From: Chryseobacterium sp. KLBC 52
GTDB taxonomy: Bacteria; Bacteroidota; Bacteroidia; Flavobacteriales; Weeksellaceae
Length of the DNA stretch: 64,000 bases
NCBI RefSeq assembly: GCF_003347605.1
Contig: NZ_QDFZ01000023.1
Coordinates: 1-64,000, forward strand
Direction: 5' to 3'
Shown: piece by piece, positions 38,192 to 44,387 of the stretch
How the letters are laid out: each line of letters starts with the position of its first letter
Position numbering within the stretch: the first letter of the stretch is position 1
The notes under the pieces: model-generated
Databases searched by the model: none
Told to the model about the DNA's origin: nothing
The model's input: the letters and a program-made list of their open reading frames with translations, nothing else
Translations under genes and position numbers: made by a program

Positions 38192-40429
38192 TTGAAAAAA
38201 CTAGTTTTACCGCTAAGCCTTATGGTCCCTGTACTGTTTTTCTCCCAACAAAGGAAAAAAGATACAGCGACTACTAAAGTAACCGATATAGAGGAAGTTG
38301 TCTTCCAGAAAAAAGCAACAGGAAGAACCAATGACCTTACCAACGTAAGAATTTCAGCGAAAGAAGCGAAATCAGTAGCTTCTATTAATGGAGGAATTGA
38401 AGGATTGCTTAAAACACTACCTTCCGTAAACTCCAACACCGAGCTGTCTTCACAATATATGGTTCGTGGTGGAAACTATGATGAGAACCTTATCTACATT
38501 AATGATATTGAAATCTACAGACCTTTCCTGATCAGAAACTCTCAGCAGGAAGGGATGAGTATCATTAACCCGGATATGGTTTCCACAGTGAATTTCTCTG
38601 CAGGAGGATTTGAAGCCAAATATGGTGATAAAATGTCTTCTGCTTTAAATATCTATTACCGTGAGCCTGAAAAATTTGAAGTTTCAGGGGAGGCAAGTTT
38701 AATCGGAGGCAGGCTTACAACAGGTCTGGCTTCAAAAAATAAAAAATTTACAGCCTTATTTTCCGGTAGATACAGAAACACCAATCTTGTTCTTAATACC
38801 TTAAAAGAAGATACAGACTTTAATCCAACCTATTGGGATTTTCAGTCTTATCTGAACTATCATGTCAGTGATAAATTCACGATGTCATTCATCGGATATT
38901 ATTCCAAGAATGATTATGAAATGATCCCAAGGGCAAAAAGTGTTACATTCGGAAGCCTTCAGCAGCCTATAACCGTAAATATTGGCTATGGAGGACAGGA
39001 AAATGACCAGTATAAAAATATGATGGGTACATTTTCCATGAACTATAAGCCTGCAGACAAATGGAAGCTTACCCTGGATGCCTTTGCTTATCAGAACAGA
39101 GAAAGAGAGTATTACACAATACAGTCAGCCTACGAGCTTCAGACTTTTGATCCTGTTACGCAGCAACCTGTAACGTCTTTCGATGTTGGAGGGCAGATAG
39201 AACATGCCAGAAATGACTTGTTTGTAAGAACATATGGGACGCAGTTCAGAGCAAAATTCTCCCCCAATGTCAATACAGACTTTGAGGTTGGATTTAAATA
39301 TGAAAAAGAAAATCTGAAAGATCTTACCAACGAATGGAAATTGGTAGATTCTGCAGGATACAGCATTCCAAGACCCGAAGTCATTGACCCGAGAACCGGA
39401 ACTACAGGAGATCTTAAGCTTGCTTATTATATTGCCGGACAAAATAATATCGAACCAACAAGACTTTCTGCCTATGCACAGTATTCACAGAAGTTTTATT
39501 GGGGAGCCAGTAAAGTATTCGTGAATGCGGGAGTACGTGTAGCGAACTGGAGTTTTAATAAAGAAATAATATTTTCTCCAAGAGCTCAGTTTGCGATAAA
39601 GCCTGATTGGGACAGCGATATGTTGTTCAAAATTTCAGGGGGAATCTACTACCAGGCTCCTTTCTATAAAGAAATCAAGGATTTGGATGGTAATTTTAAC
39701 TCTAATATAAAATCGCAGCGTTCTATCCAGGTCATTCTTGCCAATGATTATGAGTTCCAGATGTACGACAGACCATTCAAGCTTACTACGGAACTTTATT
39801 ATAAAAAATTGGATAACCTGATCCCGTATTATATGGATAATGTAAGAATCCGTTACTCAGGGCAGAATAATTCCAAAGGATATGCGTATGGTATTGATAC
39901 CAGATTATTCGGGGAATTTGTTCCAGGTGTAGATTCTTGGCTATCTGCGAGTTATGCCAGAGTGTATGAAAATATAGATGGCAGAGGAGATATTCCAAGA
40001 CCTACAGATCAGAGGTTGAGGTTTGCGATGTTCTATCAGGATTATATGCCAAGCTTTCCGAGTATGCGTGTGAACCTTACCTTAGTGTATGCTATGGGAT
40101 TGCCTACGGGAGCTCCTGTAATGTTTAACAGCAACGGACAACCAGATTTTGGTTCAGCTTATAATTATCAGCAGACGCTGCCTTCTTATAAAAGAGTAGA
40201 CTTAGGATTAACAAAGGTCTTTATTGATCCGAAAGAAAAAAATAAGAGATCCGGTTTCTGGGGTAATTTTGAGGAACTGACGTTAGGTGTTCAGGTTTTC
40301 AATGCATTTAATATCAATAATACGGTTGCCAACCAATGGATCACAGACTATAACAGCAATTATATGTATCCTGTTCCGGTACGTCTTACAGGACGTTTCT
40401 TTAATGTGAAACTGGAATTCAAACTATAG
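38192..40429 (+). CDS. TonB-dependent outer-membrane receptor
   Basis: A 745-residue receptor. It starts with TTG (38192), giving a signal peptide KKLVLPLSLMVPVLFFSQ. The plug domain is at about 40-150 (IEGLLKTLPSVNSNTELSSQYMVRGGNYDENL). The rest is a beta-barrel of alternating strands ending in a Phe-rich C-terminus (FFNVKLEFKL). It lacks the carboxypeptidase-like N-terminal domain of SusC proteins, and no SusD gene is adjacent, so it is more likely a metal, vitamin or siderophore receptor than a glycan one. It lies 43 bp after kdsA and may share its transcript, which is odd for the roles. Confidence 0.9.
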   Translation: MKKLVLPLSLMVPVLFFSQQRKKDTATTKVTDIEEVVFQKKATGRTNDLTNVRISAKEAKSVASINGGIEGLLKTLPSVNSNTELSSQYMVRGGNYDENLIYINDIEIYRPFLIRNSQQEGMSIINPDMVSTVNFSAGGFEAKYGDKMSSALNIYYREPEKFEVSGEASLIGGRLTTGLASKNKKFTALFSGRYRNTNLVLNTLKEDTDFNPTYWDFQSYLNYHVSDKFTMSFIGYYSKNDYEMIPRAKSVTFGSLQQPITVNIGYGGQENDQYKNMMGTFSMNYKPADKWKLTLDAFAYQNREREYYTIQSAYELQTFDPVTQQPVTSFDVGGQIEHARNDLFVRTYGTQFRAKFSPNVNTDFEVGFKYEKENLKDLTNEWKLVDSAGYSIPRPEVIDPRTGTTGDLKLAYYIAGQNNIEPTRLSAYAQYSQKFYWGASKVFVNAGVRVANWSFNKEIIFSPRAQFAIKPDWDSDMLFKISGGIYYQAPFYKEIKDLDGNFNSNIKSQRSIQVILANDYEFQMYDRPFKLTTELYYKKLDNLIPYYMDNVRIRYSGQNNSKGYAYGIDTRLFGEFVPGVDSWLSASYARVYENIDGRGDIPRPTDQRLRFAMFYQDYMPSFPSMRVNLTLVYAMGLPTGAPVMFNSNGQPDFGSAYNYQQTLPSYKRVDLGLTKVFIDPKEKNKRSGFWGNFEELTLGVQVFNAFNINNTVANQWITDYNSNYMYPVPVRLTGRFFNVKLEFKL

Positions 40430-40559: not shown

Positions 40560-40940
40560 ATGAAAAAGATTCTTGCCATAGTGTTTTCTATTTTCTACTT
40601 CGGGTTTTCTTCCGGAGCAGCTTTTAGCATTCATTATTGTATGAAAGAATTTGTTTCTGTAAGCCAGAAAGCGGATGATATCTGTGCTAAATGCGGCGTT
40701 AAGGAAAAAAAAGGATGCTGCAAAACGGAGATCAAAATCGTAAAAGTAGACGATTCACAGAAATCAGATTATCTGAATGTGGATTTCTTAAGTGCAGTTT
40801 CAGAAATTCCGGTGAAACATCAGTTCACTGTTATTGACAAATCGTTTTCTGCAACCAAATTTACTCAAATTCAGATTAATGCGCCGCCTGAATTCCGGCC
40901 GGTCCCTATCTACATCAATCATTGTAATTTTAGAATTTAG
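40560..40940 (+). CDS. HYC_CC_PP family exported protein
   Basis: A 126-residue exported protein. The N-terminal 20 residues are a signal peptide; the mature part starts FSIHYCMKEFVSV. The motifs that name the family are in order: HYC near residue 25-27, a Cys-rich patch CAKCGVKEKKGCC (about 42-54) and APPEF near 109-113. His and Cys placement suits binding of a soft metal such as copper. In Bacteroidota such genes sit next to copper-resistance genes, as here: DUF3347 and a multicopper oxidase follow. A metallochaperone role is inferred. Confidence 0.85.
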   Translation: MKKILAIVFSIFYFGFSSGAAFSIHYCMKEFVSVSQKADDICAKCGVKEKKGCCKTEIKIVKVDDSQKSDYLNVDFLSAVSEIPVKHQFTVIDKSFSATKFTQIQINAPPEFRPVPIYINHCNFRI

Positions 40941-41057: not shown

Positions 41058-41531
41058 ATGAAAAAATATATTATCACAGCAGCCCTATCTTTATTCTCAA
41101 TCGTGTCATTATCTGCACAATCTAAAAAGGATGCGCAGGTTTCTAAACTGTATCAGAATTATATTGCTATCAAGTCAGCATTAGCTTCGGATGATGCGGA
41201 TAAAACTTCAAAAGCCGCAACAGAATTTATCAAGACAGCTTCAGCCATTGATTATAAAGTAGTTTCTGAGGGAAATCTTAATGTTTTAAGAAAAGACGCT
41301 TCTGTAATTTCTGATTCCCGAACTATTGCAGCACAAAGGGAAACCTTTTTCAATCTTTCGGATAATATGATCGCCTTGACCAAACAATTCAAACTTTCTG
41401 AAAAACCAGTCTACGTTCAATATTGCCCAATGGCAGACGGAAGCTGGCTAAGCGATGAAAAACAAATCGCTAACCCATACTATGGGAAGTCTATGCTTTC
41501 TTGCGGAAGTGTAAAGTCAGAAATTAAATAA
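41058..41531 (+). CDS. DUF3347 periplasmic protein, copper-cluster member
   Basis: A 157-residue protein with signal peptide (cleavage after SLSAQ, residue 21). The helical DUF3347 domain runs from KLYQNYIAIKSAL to the end. The C-terminal segment VYVQYCPMADGSWLSDEKQ plus NPYYGKSMLSCG (about 124-153) has Cys and Met placed as in metal-binding DUF3347 proteins fused to or near CusB-type exporters. It lies between the HYC_CC_PP gene (117 bp) and the multicopper oxidase (90 bp). Probably a periplasmic copper-binding partner. Confidence 0.88.
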   Translation: MKKYIITAALSLFSIVSLSAQSKKDAQVSKLYQNYIAIKSALASDDADKTSKAATEFIKTASAIDYKVVSEGNLNVLRKDASVISDSRTIAAQRETFFNLSDNMIALTKQFKLSEKPVYVQYCPMADGSWLSDEKQIANPYYGKSMLSCGSVKSEIK

Positions 41532-41621
41532 TTGCTGTATTATTCTTTAAAACAATAAGTTGTATGGTTTTAGGTTATCTTTAACTTTAAGCTGTACAAC
41601 TTGCAAAAAGTTCGAAATATT

Positions 41622-44387
41622 ATGAAAAAGCTTGTAATGTTTCTGATGCTGTTATTCACTGTTTTTACTTTTGCACAAACTACAAAAACGTATTATACTT
41701 GTCCGATGCATCCGGAAGTAGTGTCTTCAAAACCTGGAGACTGTCCCAAATGCGGAATGACCCTGGTAAAAAAGACCGTTATCATAAAACCCAAAGTAGT
41801 TGCAAAACCGGAAACGAAACCTGTCCCTAAAACAGAGTCGAAAACAAAACCCACAGAAACTAAAATAAATAAAGTTAGTAAAGCAAAAGTTGCTGAGAAA
41901 ACTAAGATTATAAAATCTTCTGTTAAGCCAGAGGTAAAAAAGGTATTGCCGGTAAAAAATCAGGCTTTAACTCAAGCTCAAACTACCTATACCTGCACTA
42001 TGCATCCGGAAATAGTTTCGGACAAGCCGGGAAAATGTCCTAAATGTGGAATGGAGCTGGTAGAAAAAGAAGCTCAGTCCCATACACAGGCTGAAAATCC
42101 TAAAGAAGAAAAATCTATTTTAAAACGTAATTCAGAAAATGGAAAGATTACTTTTGGAGGAAAAACGATTCGTTATGATCTGTATGTAAAAGATACTATC
42201 GTCAATTTTACAGGAAAAAACAGAAGAGCCATTGCAATCAATGGTAAACTTCAGGCTCCGACTTTATATTTTACCGAAGGAGATACTGCAGAGATCTATC
42301 TGCACAATATGCTTAAAGAAAATACAGGGCTGCACTGGCACGGAGTGATCCTTCCCAATGAGCATGACGGTGTTCCCTATCTTACGACCAAGCCTGTAAA
42401 ACCGGGCGAGACGCATTTATATAAATTCAGAATCTCGCAAAATGGAACGTACTGGTACCATTCTCATGAAGCCCTTCAGGAACAGATTGGGATGAACGGT
42501 ATTCTGGTTTTCAAAAAAAGAGAAGGTGAGCCGAAAACAATATACAATGCTGAAATTCCGGTATTACTTGGAGATTGGAGTGATGATGATCCGATGCAGA
42601 TTGCAAGAAGGCTTCATATGGCCAATACAGACTGGTATGCGGTAAAGAAAAATGCGGTACAGAGTTACTGGGAAGCCATTAAGTCCGGGAATTTAGGAAC
42701 AAAAGCCCTGAATGAATGGAAAAGAATGGAAGCCATGGATGTAAGTGATGTTTATTACGATAAATTCTTAATCAATGGTGCACCAAGTTCAGATTATTCT
42801 AATGTAAAAGCTGGTGATAAAGTAAGACTGAGAGTTGCCAATGGAGGTTCATCTACCTATTTCTGGCTGAACTATGGTGGAGGAAAGATAAAAGTAGTGG
42901 GAAATGACGGAAATGATGTTGTTCCAATAGAAGTCGACCGTCTGATTGTAGGAGTTTCTGAAACTTATGATATTGAAGTGACCATTCCTGAAAACAAAAG
43001 CTTTGAGTTCAGGGCGACTTCTGAAGACAGGATAGGGCACGCTTCTCTCTGGCTGGGTTCAGGTGAAAAGGTTGAAGCGCCCAATCTTCCAAGATTAATG
43101 CTTTTTGAAGGAATGAAAATGATGAATGGTATGATGGAAATGAGCGGAAATATGAAGCCGATGAATATGACGATGGGAAATCAAATGATGGATATGAATG
43201 AAGTGATGTATCCGGAATTGTCTGAAAATCAAAGGAAAACTACAGCGAAGCATATCAATGAAATGATGGGTGTGAAGACGAAAGATGATAAGAAAGAAGA
43301 TCATTCTCAACACTCAGGAATGGAGATGAAAGAAGAGAAAACAATCAAAAGACTGTCTTACAATATTTTGAAATCTCCTGAGAAAACCATTCTTCCCACA
43401 GACAGCATTCGTGAAATGAAATTTACGCTTGAGGGGAATATGAATCATTATCTGTGGACACTGGATAATAAAACGGTTACAGAAACAGATAAAATTCTGA
43501 TTAAAAAAGGAGAGGTTCTTAGAATCAAGATGTATAATAATTCTATGATGCGTCACCCGATGCACCTTCATGGTCACGATTTCAGATTAATTAATTCAAA
43601 AGGAGAGTATTCTCCATTGAAAAACGTTGTGGATATCATGCCGATGGAAACCGTAACAATAGAATTTGCTGCGAATCAGGATGGCGACTGGTTTTTCCAC
43701 TGTCATATTCTATATCATATGATGGCTGGAATGGGAAGAATCTTCAGTTATGAAAACTCAAAACCCAATCCTCAGCTTCCGAACAGAAAACTGGCCTGGA
43801 AAAACTTTATACAGGATAATAAAATGACCAGTTCCATGGCGATGCTGGATGTTGCAAGTAATAAGATCCACGCAGAAACAATGACGATGTTCGGACCGAG
43901 ATGGGCCAATCTGAATGAGTTTCATTCCAACTGGAATTTTGATCATTTTGAAGGAAGTGCAAAGGTAGGGCGTTTCTTAGGAAAATTTCAATGGGCATTA
44001 CCTTATGCAGGAATCAGGGTTCAGAAAAATCATGAGATCATGGAGAGACAGATGGCAGAAGATCTGGGAATGGATTTTCATGGGAAAAAGACCTGGTTCG
44101 GACAGCAGAAGGCTTCGAAAAATAGATTTGCATTCATTGTTGGTATGCAGTATGTATTGCCAATGCTGATTACTGCTGACGCAAGTGTTGATCAAAACGG
44201 AAAAGTGTTATTGGAACTTAGCCGAGAAGATATACCGCTTTCCAGAAGGCTGAGAGGAAATTTCAGTGTCAATTCAGATGGTGAGTTCTCAACAGGATTG
44301 AGATATATCGTTCAGAAATGGCTGTCTCTTTCAGGAAATTATGATAATGAAATGGGCTGGGGTGCAGGTGTTACTTTAACCTACTAA
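41622..44387 (+). CDS. Multicopper oxidase with two heavy-metal-binding domains and C-terminal barrel
   Basis: A 921-residue exported protein, likely a CopA-type cuprous oxidase for copper resistance. The start at 41622 gives a signal peptide ending FTFAQ (residue 19). Two heavy-metal-binding domains follow, CPMHPEVV-CPKCGM (about 24-47) and CTMHPEIV-CPKCGM (about 126-149), split by a Lys/Pro-rich linker. The oxidase core has all copper motifs: HWHG (His238, 240), WYHSH (His280, 282), HPMHLHGHDF (645-654) and HCHILYHMMAGM (Cys694). A Met-rich, His-containing stretch (about 495-570) precedes the last cupredoxin domain. From about 745 to Tyr921 the sequence alternates like beta-strands and ends with a terminal aromatic, suggesting a small CopB-like outer-membrane barrel fused on. 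The fusion is inferred. Confidence 0.88.
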   Translation: MKKLVMFLMLLFTVFTFAQTTKTYYTCPMHPEVVSSKPGDCPKCGMTLVKKTVIIKPKVVAKPETKPVPKTESKTKPTETKINKVSKAKVAEKTKIIKSSVKPEVKKVLPVKNQALTQAQTTYTCTMHPEIVSDKPGKCPKCGMELVEKEAQSHTQAENPKEEKSILKRNSENGKITFGGKTIRYDLYVKDTIVNFTGKNRRAIAINGKLQAPTLYFTEGDTAEIYLHNMLKENTGLHWHGVILPNEHDGVPYLTTKPVKPGETHLYKFRISQNGTYWYHSHEALQEQIGMNGILVFKKREGEPKTIYNAEIPVLLGDWSDDDPMQIARRLHMANTDWYAVKKNAVQSYWEAIKSGNLGTKALNEWKRMEAMDVSDVYYDKFLINGAPSSDYSNVKAGDKVRLRVANGGSSTYFWLNYGGGKIKVVGNDGNDVVPIEVDRLIVGVSETYDIEVTIPENKSFEFRATSEDRIGHASLWLGSGEKVEAPNLPRLMLFEGMKMMNGMMEMSGNMKPMNMTMGNQMMDMNEVMYPELSENQRKTTAKHINEMMGVKTKDDKKEDHSQHSGMEMKEEKTIKRLSYNILKSPEKTILPTDSIREMKFTLEGNMNHYLWTLDNKTVTETDKILIKKGEVLRIKMYNNSMMRHPMHLHGHDFRLINSKGEYSPLKNVVDIMPMETVTIEFAANQDGDWFFHCHILYHMMAGMGRIFSYENSKPNPQLPNRKLAWKNFIQDNKMTSSMAMLDVASNKIHAETMTMFGPRWANLNEFHSNWNFDHFEGSAKVGRFLGKFQWALPYAGIRVQKNHEIMERQMAEDLGMDFHGKKTWFGQQKASKNRFAFIVGMQYVLPMLITADASVDQNGKVLLELSREDIPLSRRLRGNFSVNSDGEFSTGLRYIVQKWLSLSGNYDNEMGWGAGVTLTY

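Follow-up and report, generated by a model that had tools for sequence, protein, structure and literature searches.

A CopA-like multicopper oxidase predicted to carry its own PcoB-type outer-membrane barrel in Chryseobacterium and other Bacteroidota

We argue that a single gene of Chryseobacterium sp. KLBC 52 probably encodes the CopA/PcoA-CopB/PcoB pair as one polypeptide, in which a Cu(I) oxidase would sit beneath an outer-membrane pore of its own. Structure prediction and comparison, on which this reading is built, show a CopA-like multicopper oxidase (MCO) followed by what is modelled as a 12-stranded barrel related to CopB/PcoB.

Domain layout of the fused protein

The gene lies on the forward strand of the window (the whole stretch of 64,000 nucleotides that was analysed) and is laid out as follows.

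41622-44387, forward strand: fused multicopper oxidase/predicted outer-membrane barrel gene, 921 amino acids plus stop (ORF, Pfam, structure model)
41622-41678, forward strand: N-terminal signal peptide, residues 1-19 (judged by eye; twin-arginine motif absent)
41691-41774, forward strand: first HMBD (PF19335), residues 24-51 (Pfam)
41994-42053, forward strand: second HMBD motif, residues 125-144 (Pfam, in two stretches, and motif position)
42189-43754, forward strand: multicopper oxidase domains PF07732, PF00394 and PF07731, residues 190-711 (Pfam; TIGR01480, 370 bits)
43107-43346, forward strand: Met-rich stretch within the oxidase, about residues 496-575 (sequence; model confidence partly low)
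43827-44381, forward strand: predicted 12-stranded PcoB-like barrel, residues 736-920 (structure prediction, fold search, profile comparison, strand faces)

The frame (41622-44384) yields 921 amino acids from the ATG at 41622 and is closed by the stop at 44385-44387; an alternative, longer frame has a TTG start at 41601. The signal, judged by eye, is probably of the Sec type. Behind the HMBD part (PF19335, 95.3 bits in two stretches and over cut-off; motifs at residues 27 and 125), Pfam placed Cu-oxidase_3 (190-301), Cu-oxidase (335-469) and Cu-oxidase_2 (598-711) over their cut-offs, and the same protein carries the motifs HWH (238), HSH (280), HLH (648) and HCHILYH (693), which we take to be the four copper-ligand motifs of multicopper oxidases; the three domains and the four motifs together identify it as a member of this class. 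The best NCBIfam model was copper_res_A (TIGR01480), with 370.2 bits and thus below its cut-off of 478.95, as compared to 114 bits for the CueO model. Furthermore, 19 Met fall within residues 490-580, and many of those in the Met-rich stretch are invariant in the alignment of relatives. On sequence evidence, the assignment of the oxidase part to complete CopA/PcoA-like MCOs holds. Beyond residue 711 no Pfam model exceeded its cut-off in the window protein. Within the source genome PF07732 matched one gene, the fused one, whose closest relatives are from Chryseobacterium; promoter and terminator scans gave results near chance level. The single-frame layout that the initial annotation had read from the letters (signal, two metal domains, full oxidase, Met-rich loop, C-terminal strands and aromatic end) is borne out by the ORF, Pfam, the motifs and the structure model.

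Fold of the C-terminal part and its kinship with CopB/PcoB

From an alignment of 33 C-terminal parts, AlphaFold predicted a barrel of 12 strands (mean pLDDT 85), in agreement with the barrel proposed in the initial annotation. In a Foldseek search of the PDB, PcoB (7pge) was the top match of this model (E 1e-5), followed by FapF (E 4.8e-4), with TM-scores to PcoB of only about 0.5. VIA-align likewise ranked PcoB first (Z 14.8, 155 aligned, 3.2 A), although OmpLA (Z 14.0, 156 aligned, 3.1 A) is tied with it by Z, so that VIA does not separate the two predicted likenesses. In a model of residues 172-921 the same 12 barrel strands were retained behind the MCO, from which they are set apart by a short linker with one predicted helix; CueO, which shares the periplasmic cuprous oxidase fold and is without a barrel, was among the Foldseek matches of this longer model. 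The two faces of the 12 predicted strands differ by 0.41 in mean hydrophobic content across 41 core rows, as compared to 0.215 (sd 0.045) after shuffling, and none of 5000 shuffles reached the observed value. Moreover, the last residue is Tyr in 109 of 110 related rows (which include the window's own locus and count some genomes twice), the exception (L046) running into a contig end. The viral library fold search was uninformative, with one match at E < 0.001 (TM-scores < 0.3), and the 33-member barrel profile found a single match among solved structures by sequence, an unrelated enzyme at E 0.72. Taken together, the models and fold searches support a 12-stranded outer-membrane barrel of the PcoB fold as the predicted C-terminal part of the fused protein.

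The HMM check against CopB (PF05275, gathering cut-off 27 bits) that had been envisaged at the outset turned out negative for the window protein, for its barrel and for the whole source genome, as well as for all of the 33 aligned core barrels (the window's included). For profile work the 110 rows were reduced to 41 core rows by removing tails of < 185 residues (L046) and rows > 80% identical, the 33-row alignments being the subset of named-contig rows plus the window. Taken alone, the core barrels gave a weak hhalign match to CopB (probability 10 and 16). Twelve divergent fused proteins were found by profile search, and only with these joined to the core barrels did the family profile match CopB + PcoB strongly (score 44.7, probability 87); the highest score among 100 column-shuffled CopB profiles was 29.2. 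In the OmpLA control, the barrel family scored 13.9 (range 13.9-15.6) and the CopB and OmpLA profiles scored 15.2 against each other. OmpLA (PF02253), without a match in the source genome, shares the predicted 12-stranded fold (Z 14.0) and shows no profile similarity to the barrel (13.9). If forced, the alignment with CopB spans the whole barrel. PF05275 was found below its cut-off in 4 of the 10 divergent fused barrels scanned (best E 1.9e-4) and in a fusion on an Ilyobacter plasmid (E 0.0057), generic OMP models matching the divergent barrels with similar E. As the profile enriched in divergent members matches CopB and the Pfam model fails on the window's barrel, sequence comparison places the latter as a putative distant relative of CopB/PcoB and not as a PF05275 member.

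The carboxylate pairs of the PcoB pore (D97-E207 and E130-E223) are kept in part: the position equivalent to D97 holds D in 19 of the 41 core rows, that of E130 holds E in 29 and that of E207 holds E in 33 (all of them in fewer of the 12 divergent rows), and E223 falls in a gap of the barrel-PcoB alignment. The selectivity of the fused pore may hence differ. R868 is present in all 41 core rows, and 8 of the 21 positions invariant in the 33 barrels are charged or Gln.

Distribution of the fused and the separate form

The barrel was found in 51 of 100 genomes of the same family (own genome included) and in 51 of 296 genomes of the phylum. A search with TIGR01480, in a phylum draw of the same size and with the same genome handles where listed, recovered an MCO at E <= 1e-30 in 74 genomes, i.e. 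all 51 barrel genomes, 21 with a separate CopA over the TIGR01480 cut-off and two weak ones (G327, G350). The overlap between barrel genomes and separate-CopA genomes is zero, and in none of the listed genomes does the fused form occur together with a separate CopA. PF05275 exceeded its cut-off in 15 of 198 genomes, all of them among the 21 with separate CopA, and in each of the 15 CopB adjoins CopA (with overlapping frames where read); the other six separate-CopA genomes lie, by handle number, outside this 198-genome draw, and in one of them (G335) a CopB motif stands next door to CopA. The separate oxidase ends 26-33 residues past its last HCH motif, as compared to 205-234 residues in the fused form (178 in the cut-short L046). 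Within one family code (f22), and even one genus code (g79, g92), members have one form or the other. These observations support the conclusion that the separate CopA + CopB pair and the fused form are mutually exclusive by distribution. The proposal that the gene joins a CopA-type oxidase to a CopB-like barrel, made in the initial annotation, is accordingly strengthened by the structure model, the fold search with PcoB first, the controlled profile match, the sub-threshold PF05275 matches and this exclusive distribution.

A standalone barrel gene was found in neither the family nor the phylum search, from which very distant barrels would escape. Barrels outside a long frame occurred at 5 of 62 places in the phylum search (the two rows of G127 counted as one gene): one at a contig end (G147), two in broken frames (G182, contig 11; G364), one as a broken fragment at a contig end (G353) and one as a remnant in a 47-aa frame (G101). 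The exceptions in the family search were oxidases split over two frames (G068, G062 and G007), two rows that begin at a contig start (G052 and G057) and a 45-residue piece (G094).

Among plasmids, 22 records carry the barrel (13 of them from Hymenobacter), and there is one fusion in Ilyobacter polytropus (Fusobacteriota) for which Pfam finds the MCO in the same protein. As 21 of the 22 records annotate the gene simply as a multicopper oxidase (the remaining one is without a listed gene), the membrane half is invisible in annotation.

Several side observations were made at individual loci. A fusion on a Fusobacteriota plasmid typed as conjugative (L223, 2219-4246) has another MCO, a cupredoxin and several periplasmic metal sensors in its vicinity. 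In three genomes with separate copA + copB (L214-L216) an extra, distant MCO of about 480-510 aa lies no more than about 6 kb from copA. The tblastn match at L087 and L090 continues well past the fused gene, a hint that a further piece or copy lies downstream. L168, L170, L171, L225 and L226 are broken fused copies, in which the frame is disrupted either within the oxidase or in the stretch that leads from it to the barrel.

Genomic neighbourhood and the HMBD front

Three genes precede the fused gene on the same strand.

38192-40429, forward strand: TonB-dependent receptor that has a Plug domain (PF07715) and precedes the HYC_CC_PP gene
40560-40940, forward strand: HYC_CC_PP family protein, 126 aa (NF047658, 35.7 bits, cut-off 28)
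41058-41531, forward strand: DUF3347 protein, 157 aa (PF11827, 57.2 bits, cut-off 25.5)

This DUF3347 gene is the only place in the source genome that PF11827 matches. Partners were counted at 80 loci (phmmer E <= 1e-3, up to 5 kb from the fused gene): a DUF3347 relative was present at 71 and a HYC_CC_PP relative at 34, which makes DUF3347 a wide partner of the fused gene and HYC_CC_PP not. The compact three-gene copper system of the initial annotation consequently stands as a description of this window, where both upstream genes are found, and is to be narrowed to DUF3347 for the relatives at large. The DUF3347 protein is likely a copper partner; the open-access papers that we searched yielded none on DUF3347 with copper. 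A TonB receptor match occurred near the fused gene at 28 of the 80 loci, all of them named Chryseobacterium, and the receptor might belong to the copper cluster. At some Chryseobacterium loci (L031, 7773-8402; L033, 7763-8410; L038, 7485-8135) a second, weaker DUF3347 match lies directly downstream of the fused gene.

The HMBD motif was found in at least 39 of 80 relatives, a lower bound because the motif pattern is strict, and many Flavobacterium members begin almost at the oxidase. The HMBDs are optional metal-binding accessories and not a defined sensor, and the 'metal-sensing' character at first ascribed to this front found no support.

Phylogeny and export

In the tree of the MCO domain, 37 fused rows cluster together (support 99), apart from a second group (support 100) made up of the 13 separate CopAs, out of 21, that were used here. 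A single fusion event is allowed by this topology and not proven, as the outgroup is distant and its joins unsure. Under the same scanning rule for both forms, a twin-arginine motif preceded the oxidase in all 21 separate CopAs examined, in 1 of 80 fused proteins (L095) and in none of the 12 divergent fused ones; the window protein is without it at its N-terminus. The start of L095 was mechanically chosen, and a later in-frame Met opens an ordinary signal. Extending the scanned stretch into the oxidase by 15 residues brought in seven further fused proteins, which matched via NRRAIA, a sequence inside the oxidase domain. Since each of the 20 genomes checked (source genome included) has TatC, a missing Tat system is not the reason for the Tat-less fused proteins. 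Substrates of BAM reach it unfolded, via Sec, and a C-terminal barrel should therefore rule out Tat; the apparent change of route from Tat to Sec would be expected of an outer-membrane barrel. As the two groups are each one clade, this change may have been a single event.

Discussion

The closest known system is the PcoA + PcoB pair (CopA + CopB; Proteobacteria and part of the phylum draw), in which a CopA-type MCO is likewise coupled to a 12-stranded outer-membrane barrel. The literature describes PcoB as an OmpLA-like barrel of 12 strands with both termini periplasmic, which passes Cu(II) in liposomes (PMC9210255), and reports that the level and stability of PcoA depend on the disordered N-terminal region of PcoB, whose loss lowers PcoA, a docking of PcoA on PcoB with Cu(II) transfer being proposed (PMC12509749). 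The fused form differs from this pair in being one polypeptide instead of two and in being without a Tat motif; its oxidase stands where PcoB has its long N-terminal region, its barrel stays below PF05275 detection and its MCO below the TIGR01480 cut-off. In the open literature searched, we recognised one earlier paper describing such an oxidase-barrel fusion: residues 611-809 of the Bizionia argentinensis MCO G2EDV6 are noted there as porin-like with some similarity to PcoB, and in the passages available these C-terminal 200 residues receive a brief remark, without analysis of fold, distribution, partner or export (PMC11213822). The present work goes beyond that remark by testing fold and profile likeness against controls, by finding that the fused and the separate form exclude each other among genomes, and by describing the clade, the difference in export and the association with DUF3347.

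Under the reading that we favour, the fused protein would be exported unfolded by Sec and its barrel inserted by BAM, which gives a predicted location in the outer membrane. An even number of strands would leave both barrel ends periplasmic (as in PcoB), and with them the oxidase would be suspended directly below the pore, on the periplasmic side of the membrane. In this position it would oxidise Cu(I) to Cu(II) (an activity that we infer from the family), with the Met-rich stretch, the HMBDs where present and the DUF3347 protein encoded nearby as helpers. The Cu(II) would cross the outer membrane via the fused pore, and we take a net export of copper out of the periplasm to be the likelier direction of flow.

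The opposite flow, in which the barrel would admit Cu(II) from outside and the oxidase together with the DUF3347 protein would buffer or use it in the periplasm, appears unlikely to us. P-type ATPases bring copper into the periplasm as Cu(I), and the oxidase, whose class acts on Cu(I), would sit on the periplasmic side. The charged residues conserved in the barrel are nonetheless compatible with entry, and for PcoB itself the direction is disputed in the literature, uptake being argued in the structure paper (PMC9210255) and efflux being described for the Caulobacter protein (PMC12509749). There is a rather slim chance that the barrel serves solely to anchor a CueO-like oxidase in the outer membrane, without passing copper: the scarcity of D97 equivalents (19 of 41 core rows) and conserved arginines that could close the lumen (R868 above all) speak for it, but the share of charged or Gln residues among the invariant positions (8 of 21) is more than an anchor seems to need, and the fused form stands in for the copA + copB pair, where CopB is the pore.

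We consider it improbable that the oxidase works mainly on another substrate (e.g. Mn(II) or phenols), which the barrel would hold or pass, for copper_res_A is the nearest NCBIfam model by a wide margin, the neighbours look copper-related and the Met-rich stretch keeps many invariant Met, even if MCOs are diverse and the TIGR01480 cut-off was missed (370 of 479 bits). Very improbable, in our judgement, is a C-terminal part that forms a soluble beta domain and not an outer-membrane barrel: soluble barrels of the nitrobindin type do occur further down the VIA list (Z up to 7.8), but the model is a 12-stranded barrel with outer-membrane proteins in the top ranks, its strand faces alternate, the terminal Tyr is nearly constant and the Tat motif is absent.

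On the reading of an oxidase held under its own pore, many relatives carry the joined form and not the pair, a circumstance that allows a natural test of how the two halves cooperate, and the existence of a natural covalent PcoA-PcoB in many lineages argues that both work as a single unit at the outer membrane. In the fused protein the PcoA-PcoB contact would be permanent, and its 1:1 make-up lends itself to measuring oxidation, handover and direction; an enzyme class that is Tat-exported when separate would moreover have been refitted for Sec, and DUF3347 emerges as a likely copper partner. We put forward tentatively, and at somewhat less than even confidence, that the common answer of Bacteroidota to CopA/CopB may be a single-polypeptide oxidase-plus-pore, which would have arisen by one fusion event with a switch from Tat to Sec, would hold the oxidase in a lasting position below its own channel, new Cu(II) passing straight into the pore, and would have long retained the DUF3347 protein as its copper partner.
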